In this document: piece after piece, positions 38,301 to 41,300 of the stretch | Position numbering within the stretch: the stretch's first letter is position 1 | Layout: every line of letters begins with the position of its first letter | Notes under the pieces: generated by a model | Told to the model about the DNA's origin: nothing | The model's input: only the letters and a program-made list of their open reading frames with translations | The model's database searches: none | Source of the DNA: Liolophura sinensis | Lineage: Eukaryota > Mollusca > Polyplacophora > Chitonida > Chitonidae | Length of the DNA: 64,000 nt | Direction of reading: 5' to 3' | Assembly: GCF_032854445.1 (NCBI RefSeq) | Contig: NC_088306.1 | Coordinates: 14,007,386 to 14,071,385 of the forward strand | Program-made: the position numbers and the translations under genes

Positions 38301-41300
38301 AATGAAAAGCGACAGCATTTTTTGTGGGATTTAGCCAACTGTTAAAGTATAACTAAAACAACCGGTGATTGCAATAATGCTACTTAACTCATTCGATACC
38401 GGGAGCGCATCTATGCGCTCAGAACTAATATCCACATGTACACAAGAACGATTGAAAATATCCATTCAAACAAGCCACTGAGTATTCGACTACATATATA
38501 ACAATCTGCTCATCTTACCTTAGAATCTCTGAGTTCTGAAAAGGTATCGACGATGATACCGAAGATGATGTTGAGACCAATGGTGGTGACCAGGATGAAA
38601 AATGTGACATTGTAAATCGCCAGGACCAGATGGTAGCCGAACGGCTGGTTTGACACCTCTTCGATAAGGTACTAAAACAGTCATATCAGATATTCACTGG
38701 TTTATGCAATATTTTATTTTAAACATTTTCAGTATGTGTATCTTGATACCCTCAGTATGGATGTCACTCTGTGTAGATTCGACTAGTTGAACAACTATAT
38801 GACTGCTCTATTTTGTATGCCGCGTTCAAAATCGCCAAGTATTCTTCATTTTCAACCCAAACGTTCCACGAGTTTATTTGTTGATGATGCCGAGTGCGGC
38901 CGACTCGAATCGAAAATGGCTGTTATTTATTTGATTTTATTTATTCGATCGGTGTTTTACGCCGTACTCAAGAATATTTCACTTATACGGAGGCGGCCAG
39001 CATTATGGTGGGAGGAAACCGGGAAGAGCCCGGAGGAAACCCAAGACCATCCGCAGGTTGCTGGAAGACCTTCCCACTTACGGGATCATATTACACATGA
39101 TTACACGCTGTGTCCCTGAACATGTAGAAAGTCATTGGATCGATTGATTTCCAAGATGAAAGCTCGGATGATGTCTTTTCCGACATTGCTTTTTGTGGTA
39201 GATGTATTTCTAGAAAACTGCAAATAGCAGCCGTTTGAATTGGGTAGCAAAATTATGGGAGATTTTTGTTATCTTACTGTTTTGAAGTTTCCTCTAGGTC
39301 ACTTAGTTTGACGGCCATATTGGATTTCGAGCAAAACTATTAAACATTTTTTTTGAAATAAAATGTAGAGTATGCATGTAGATTGGATTATTGATCAATA
39401 CTGAGTTTTCGAGTTACGTCATTACGATAACAGCGTGACTTCCAACCGTCTGCATGGTCCATATATAGCAGTGCAGTAACAGCTTCAACCGCAGGGGGTT
39501 GTCACGGTTTGGTTCCCTGACTTATCTGGCGTATCTTGAAAGCTGATGGCGCCATCTGACGTCATACTTACATATAGACGCACTTACATTGTATGTGTTT
39601 TCCACTAGGCCGTGGTGAATAATGGTAATGAAGCACTCGTACATCCGCCCACAGTATCGCCCACTAGCCGTGTTGTACAACTCTCTGTAGAAAGCGAAGC
39701 TGATCAGGGCGTAGATATAGAAAAAGATCAATCCCAAGATGGCTACCATGATTAGAGACAAACCTGAAAATACCCGCAGAATAAACAACATGAGGCTTTA
39801 TTGTTGGTACAGTGCATCTGAATCAAAAACGATTAACGACGCGCACGATGCAGGCAACTTACGTTTTCAACGCATTGTACCCAGAGACAAAAGAGTGTTC
39901 ATTGATGTAAAACAATCTGTTGTCACAATATTGTGCTTATATGGACAAATGTGGATACTATAACGCGCAAAGTTTTTTAAAAAAATATTGTGCCCGAAAA
40001 CAAAATTAAATAATAATGTGCATAATACAACCTGCACGAACAATGCTTAATCAACCTGCAACATCCCGGTTTACGCAGTGGTTTTTGTAGTACACAAAAC
40101 TACAGAACAGAGATTATTACGTAACACCAGTTTTGACTTGAGTCAAAACTTAAAATATGTTTTTAAAGCTTTCTTTCAAACAATGTAAATTAAAATTTTG
40201 ACCACCTCATCAATGTTATGTTAAGACGAATGTGTGAAAATTTAAACTTATAAAACCAAAAACTAAGCATTGTGACAACGTTTTAAATTTTGACATAAGT
40301 CAGAAATGTCTTTGTGTAATCGCAACATCAAGAAATAGACTTTATTTGGCTTATGCAGTTTTAAAATGTTTGATTGTGATATTTATTTGCCCTTACCGTT
40401 TTTGGTGACAGCCCCAATCACTCTGCTCAGAAGCTGGTTCATTGAGGCAATGTGCAACAAGTGGAACGCGAAGAAGTAGCCATAGAAAGCCGTGCCCAAT
40501 GCGGAGAATACCAGGAACGTCTGAAGGACACAAGGAGGAAAAACACAATGACTATGGCAATAGGCCATATACAATGGCAAAGCAGGACAAGCAATTTATC
40601 TGTGAAGCGAGGCCGTGGAAGACGTTTTGTATGTGTAGCTGTAGAGATATATTACATTCTGAAGTGACTGTTTCGATCTTTTTATATCTTTATATGTATG
40701 TAATATCATTACCGGCGCCATGTTAACGTATTTCATAGTTTACTGTTAAGTTGCTTGTTATTTTATATCTACAGCCATGTACGAGATTCTCAGTTGTTTA
40801 GTTTTAACCACCTTTTCAAATCGTGTAAATGTTACATGCATAAATGAACGGAAGGGAGATAACTGTGTCGTTCTCTATAAACTCACAATGTAGTACGCTG
40901 TTCTGAAGCTGAGTAGTTTGACCTCCAGGTGGGATTCTCGGTCGTCATCCTGCTTCATCCACGGGGAGTTGTAATCTTCTGGAACACCGCGGATACTGAG
41001 GCACAACATATGGTTGTTTTATCATTCAACGGAATTTTCCACTTATATTTATTTATTTGATTGATGTTTTACGCCGTCTTCAAGAAAATTTTACTTATAT
41101 ACGACGGTTGACGGTTTCATCAATTTATTTATTTGTTTGATTGGTTTGATTTATTTACTTATTTGATTGGTGTTTTACGCCATACTCAAGAATATTTCAC
41201 TTATACGACGGCGACCAGCATTATGGTGGGAGGAAACCGGGCAGAGCCAGGGGAAAACCCACGACCATCCGCAGGTTGCAGGCAGACCTTCCCACGTACG

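Follow-up and report, generated by a model that had tools for sequence, protein, structure and literature searches.

According to our analysis, the minus strand of the 64,000-nucleotide stretch of Liolophura sinensis DNA considered here (the window) holds the 3' portion of a large animal gene, whose 5' end lies beyond the window and whose predicted product is an IP3R/RyR-family channel with a replaced selectivity filter. The filter sequences GGGVGD, as in IP3R2, and GGGIGD, as in RyR1, are both absent at the junction of the two pore exons, as the preliminary description of this DNA had claimed. We deem the locus, with a rough probability of 0.45, to encode an intracellular channel subunit of this family, most likely an IP3RB, which would work as a gated channel for cations whose filter has been remodelled. 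Judging from sequence comparisons, this reading is favoured over that of a non-conducting regulator or a pseudogene.

Gene model and family placement

The gene was rebuilt with a dynamic programme based on codon usage and splice sites, and by hand, as a single open frame of 27 exons (62902 to 35298) encoding 1,155 amino acids and a stop codon. The gene-finder scores derive from training carried out partly on the exons of this same gene and of a Kelch gene, and several upstream exons are supported by the gene finder and by eye alone. Where a frame of 31 exons had been proposed before, the open chain within the window comprises these 27; the two pore exons were confirmed at the coordinates given earlier, with good splice sites and an in-frame phase 0 join. 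The main features are collected in Table 1.

Table 1. Features of the IP3R/RyR-like gene, in window coordinates
Feature	Position	Strand	Basis
Pore exon A: S5, turret, pore helix, HHGL, first half of replaced filter (VENTYN)	39588..39763	-	Open frame; splice sites tttcag/G..AAT/gtaagt; alignment to ITPR2 and RyR1
Pore exon B: second half of replaced filter (YLIEEV), loop, S6 with gate	38519..38671	-	Open frame; splice sites ttttag/TAC..AAG/gtaaga; aligned within ITPR2 2477-2669
Pore intron, 916 bp, interrupting the filter codons; SINE-like repeat near 38988	38672..39587	-	Cassette and splicing listing; repeat copy
Exon: S3-S4 region to VTKN	40397..40520	-	Gene model, alignment
Exon: S2-S3 region	40887..40995	-	Acceptor picked as the sole one fitting the frame
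Exon: S2 helix	41628..41780	-	Gene model, hydropathy
Exon: S1 helix	42664..42771	-	Gene model, hydropathy
Exon: linker with zinc-finger CFIC	37896..37973	-	Gene model, alignment
Exon: zinc-finger HxxxxH (HVKREH) and calcium-site Thr (DYTA)	36657..36776	-	Gene model, alignment
Exon: C-terminal domain and beginning of IP3R-like tail	36062..36196	-	Gene model, alignment
Last exon: charged tail, stop codon TGA	35298..35384	-	Gene model
Exon: RIH_assoc, calcium-site Glu replaced by Asp (QMCDGQ)	48414..48560	-	Pfam RIH_assoc; aligned to ITPR2 LLCENH
Exon: RIH_assoc, second calcium-site Glu retained (LNEF)	47404..47553	-	Gene model, Pfam, alignment
Six exons, RIH_assoc to S1 (47180-47079, 46696-46592, 46297-46229, 45301-45175, 44144-44026, 43599-43430)	43430..47180	-	Frame-consistent chain, within stretch aligned to ITPR2 1920-2243
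RyR-like segment: exons 57394-57242, 57009-56853, 56369-56272	56272..57394	-	phmmer against PDB
Uncertain upstream exons (62902-62798, 59411-59340, 58743-58614, 58214-58076, 55627-55528, 51675-51394)	51394..62902	-	Gene finder and eye; frame-consistent, GT-AG splice sites

A Pfam search detected, both above the cut-off, RIH_assoc at residues 441-533 (79.3 bits) and Ion_trans at residues 864-1015 (36.3 bits), which is the order, RIH_assoc and then a six-helix Ion_trans domain, by which the superfamily is recognised. A simple hydropathy scan separated five hydrophobic segments, with S4 not resolved singly. The best solved relatives in a PDB search were ITPR2 (173.2 bits), IP3R1 (158.2), IP3R3 (152.3), and RyR3 (139.8), and the ITPR2 alignment covers residues 444-757, 856-939, and 942-1133. 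The earlier assignment to the IP3R/RyR family is thus borne out by the Pfam domains and by the matches to solved ITPR2 and RyR3. At the 3' end, the sequence beyond the C-terminal domain can be aligned to the tail of IP3R. Further upstream, residues 141/145-279 (exons 57394-56272) match RyR2 and RyR3 with E about 3e-5 in a phmmer search of the PDB, whose 58 sequences with E no higher than 1 include no IP3R chain; ITPR2 reached only -2.5 bits over these residues in a longer search. Outside residues 141-279, the upstream part yielded no IP3R/RyR match in the PDB phmmer search, and neither RR_TM4-6 nor an EF-hand was matched by Pfam up to E=1. A pattern search of bacterial and archaeal contigs gave 21 matches and no relative, and one of viral contigs gave no match, both collections being ill-suited to animal genes.

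The channel domain of the query is identical to RyR1 at 80/229 residues, to IP3R2 at only 72/231, and to IP3R3 at 70/232, all lower than the identity between IP3R3 and RyR1 themselves (90/238). Because of these identities, and of an upstream segment matched by RyR only, the gene looks like a third branch and not a recent copy of IP3R or RyR. That the gene, instead of being an IP3RB, diverged within one lineage as a copy of RyR or of a canonical IP3R (IP3RA) and lost its filter after duplication is correspondingly improbable. Such a copy could account for the top PDB score overall being that of ITPR2 and for the IP3R-like tail and gate residues N and F, but a recent copy should lie near IP3R or RyR, whereas the query is distant from both, and its upstream segment matches no IP3R chain.

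The comparison with the known receptor types gives a mixed picture. With the canonical IP3R1-3 (IP3RA), the query shares the succession of RIH_assoc and channel domain at similar spacing, the zinc linker, the gate residues N and F, and the C-terminal tail, whereas their GGGVGD filter and long luminal S5-pore loop are absent here. With RyR it shares a short S5-pore loop, a channel domain that aligns as one stretch, and the upstream segment, but it lacks the GGGIGD filter and any RR_TM4-6 or EF-hand match at the threshold given above. Moreover, only about 330 residues separate RIH_assoc and Ion_trans, compared with about 700, by SMART boundaries, in a RyR-like protein of scallop (PMC13362341).

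A mixed affinity of this kind with an IP3R-like architecture would fit the IP3RB subfamily, as IP3R-like architecture combined with partly RyR-like sequence would be expected of a RyR relative; such a placement would also alter which relatives count as closest. Over the 116 channel-domain sites at which IP3R2 and IP3R3 agree and differ from RyR1, the query is RyR-like at 29, IP3R-like at 20, and like neither at 67, with no significant leaning (p=0.25); affinity was judged here against three references (IP3R2, IP3R3, and RyR1), none of them an IP3RB. The founding paper for IP3RB is reportedly that of Alzayady in 2015. According to PMC7992859, IP3RB is represented in leeches by two genes, was inferred to be present in the bilaterian ancestor, and is reportedly missing from vertebrates, D. 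melanogaster, and C. elegans, and ip3rb2 is strongly enriched in the touch neurons of the leech Hirudo; the main text of that paper makes no mention of pore, selectivity, or GGG. An IP3R-B unable to bind IP3, said there to be replaced by RyR, is mentioned in PMC9113742.

Several repeats lie within and around the gene. A 33-bp minisatellite of about 21 copies (47747-48442) begins close to where the RIH_assoc exon 48560-48414 ends, and its unit encodes a variant of the end of that exon, VLCDGQNQQ[IT]Q; seven exact copies of CAG/GTACTGTG were counted in it. The array looks as though copies of the exon end and its donor site had spread into the intron by amplification, and splicing from many donors is possible. 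A SINE-like repeat occurs in six copies, at 38988, 41206, 41347, 46009, and 55895 on the minus strand and at 29294 on the plus strand, one of them within the pore intron. Their common tail is like CGTATAAGTGAAATATTCTTGAGT..GGCGTAAAACACCAATCAAATAAATAAA, and the repeat looks molluscan. Downstream on the minus strand lies a BTB-BACK-Kelch (KLHL-type) gene (9470-24835, its extent to 9470 judged by eye), with BTB (104 bits) and BACK (90 bits) in the ORF 24835-23747 and Kelch motifs in ORFs ending or starting at 16322, 15424, 12174, and 11469. A 20-bp tandem array of about 104 copies (12810-14933) is found between the Kelch ORFs, and a 60-bp array with a higher-order period of 240 bp at 29754-30515. 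Scans of the window with Rfam (gathering threshold) and for tRNAs gave no matches.

The replaced filter and its surroundings

In each of three registers the five invariant residues of the filter (G, G, G, G, and D) have all disappeared, and no glycine is left in the filter whether the MAFFT, the HMMER, or the ungapped register is used. Within the wider motif GxRxGGGxGD, the first G alone is retained, while R, GGG, G, and D are all changed. The register itself is not unique, since the HMMER alignment inserts two 2-residue gaps in the loop. The position of NTYNYL opposite GGGVGD, as put forward in the preliminary description, holds in the ungapped register, whereas MAFFT places NTY on GGG and IEE on VGD/IGD. 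Likewise, the replacement had been said to involve no change in length; counted from two residues before the Cys heading the pore helix through the FF of S6, this is correct with respect to ITPR2 (49 residues each) but one residue off with respect to RyR1 (48). The pore helix, also held to be intact, is recognisable and retains C..C and G, but Asp, one of its four invariant residues, is replaced by Gly. Between the end of the pore helix and S6, the replacement loop is polar and acidic and includes three Glu residues. A K-channel-like reading of the sequence PFGY further along the loop was dropped, as its position would lie well beyond the pore helix.

The loss is not evenly spread over the alignment. 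Among the 85 columns that are invariant in IP3R2, IP3R3, and RyR1, the query retains 47, namely none of the five in the filter versus 47/80 outside it (Fisher p=0.015). It is also broader than the filter, extending from the Arg of GxRxGGGxGD through the invariant residues that lead up to S6: from this Arg to the S6 start, within boundaries that were chosen post hoc, 1/13 invariant columns is retained (2 of the 13 being gaps in the query) versus 46/72 elsewhere (p=0.0002). When runs of five consecutive invariant columns were considered, 5/81 had none retained, of which two cover the filter, two lie immediately ahead of S6, and one falls on TGxESYV. This last motif, shared without change by IP3R2, IP3R3, and RyR1, follows the calcium-site Thr in exon 36657-36776 and is TAIQLHI in the query. 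Motif loss is thus not confined to the filter.

In the literature, GGGxGD is described as the conserved IP3R/RyR filter in parasites, insects, and mammals (PMC3194816, PMC4204029, PMC8301844). In an IP3R-like homologue of S. mansoni, the G and R just before the filter differ from those of human IP3R/RyR, and GGGXGD is kept (PMC3194816). Natural departures from GGGVGD are described for ITPR homologues of oomycetes and Paramecium, with GGGLG(G/S) in some of the former and leucine-containing variants in some of the latter (PMC7399828). The oomycete variants retain the triple glycine, whereas the filter of the query is devoid of any glycine. Among the literature matches listed, consisting of titles and abstract openings with subscription papers mostly outside, no IP3R/RyR homologue without a glycine filter is reported.

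Hidden exon or decay

The lost motif straddles an exon junction, which is where a skipped exon would show, and the pore intron harbours a repeat. Both would be in keeping with a true transcript that bears a canonical filter, either through a cassette or mutually exclusive exon or behind an assembly or sequencing error. To this explanation we give the least credence. A six-frame scan of the whole window for GG[GAS]xG[DEGS] and G[GAS]G[VILA]G returned only a glycine run at 25589, far off. Within the intron 38672-39587, where an exon encoding a substitute filter would have contradicted the preliminary description, no such exon was found: a filter was yielded by 0/28 open in-frame cassettes and 0/17 alternative in-frame splicings, the listing being confined to GT-AG sites and to single cassettes inserted between unaltered flanking exons. 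A gap in the assembly would escape both checks.

The high overall divergence and the loss of more than one invariant motif could also be the marks of a decaying pseudogene, which we regard as very improbable. The 3,465 nt without a stop bound neutral divergence at about 0.022 per site (95%), a figure softened by the gene finder's having selected open exons (residues 444-1155 alone raise it to about 0.035). Depending on the register and on the ancestor, a minimum of 8 to 12 of the 18 filter bases must have changed, and the probability of at least 8 changes in 18 bases at 0.022 per site is 2e-9. An exchange of the loop in a single step at the exon junction, or the death of the gene after the filter had changed, would be compatible with the bound. 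In line with the preliminary description, simple decay is unlikely in view of the open-frame bound, as is a filter exon hidden in this assembly in view of the scans. Within the limits of the bound, the filter is predicted to have been altered at a time when coding constraint still acted on the gene.

Retained gating elements and predicted function

The S6 gate and the zinc linker are retained by alignment to IP3R/RyR, in agreement with the preliminary description. Taking as reference the IP3R3 residues N2510, F2513, G2514, I2517, D2518, and R2524, whose roles are given in PMC8930994, the query has N, F, G, and D at the positions of N2510, F2513, G2514, and D2518, V in place of I2517, and R aligned with the linker residue R2524. 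The C2H2 zinc linker after S6 is present, with CFIC identical and HVKREH aligned with HIKxEH/HTLEEH. The calcium-activation site of IP3R3 (E1882, E1946, and T2581 according to PMC8930994) aligns with D, E, and T, and near it H1884 is replaced by Q and Q1949 by S.

We propose that the protein would tetramerise in the ER membrane and that calcium binding would move the retained S6 gate, as in IP3R/RyR. Ions would then pass the remodelled entry, whose acidic residues may still attract cations, with a conductance and selectivity presumably unlike those of the known relatives. In simulations of RyR1, calcium keeps nearly its full hydration shell on passing and accumulates at the acidic luminal-mouth residues D4899, E4900, and D4903 (PMC7026163); given this hydrated passage and acidic attraction, a glycine-free acidic mouth is not plainly non-conducting. 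Since the gate and most of the sensor are retained and three Glu lie in the replaced stretch, a calcium-gated channel with a remodelled entry would be favoured, all the more so because gating parts would be expected to decay in a protein that never opened.

Several observations weigh against a remodelled channel. In IP3R2, homotetramers carrying the filter mutation G2498S release no calcium, whereas heterotetramers with two G2498S subunits retain partial function (PMC7939385); a single Gly-to-Ser exchange is thus already enough to kill the homotetramer. In addition, GGGXGD is described as being kept even by the homologues of trypanosomatids and schistosomes (PMC3194816), and in the query the TGxESYV motif adjoining the calcium-site Thr is lost as well. 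The behaviour of G2498S, together with the aligning IP3R-like C-terminal tail, would suit a non-conducting member with a dead pore, which would keep calcium sensing, gating motions, and ER scaffolding and serve as a decoy or scaffold or dampen the output of heterotetramers formed with canonical IP3R subunits. We consider this somewhat unlikely. In a homomeric scaffold the retained gate residues would be superfluous. As for heterotetramers, IP3R3 and RyR1 are not known to co-assemble, and in the channel domain the query is further from IP3R2 and IP3R3 than IP3R3 is from RyR1, which makes its mixing with IP3RA doubtful.

If the remodelled-filter reading is extended from this locus to the family, the lophotrochozoan IP3RB class would have abandoned the glycine filter and would conduct via an acidic, glycine-free entry, as a calcium-gated ER channel of new selectivity. 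We put this forward as a speculation that is rather unlikely as it stands. If true, it would explain at the molecular level why there is a third receptor type that lends itself to cell-specific use, as with ip3rb2 in leech touch neurons (PMC7992859). A protein without a filter glycine, but with its gate and the greater part of its calcium sensor preserved, would be a natural experiment separating gating from permeation, and the gene could offer a direct handle on the role of the little-studied IP3RB receptors.
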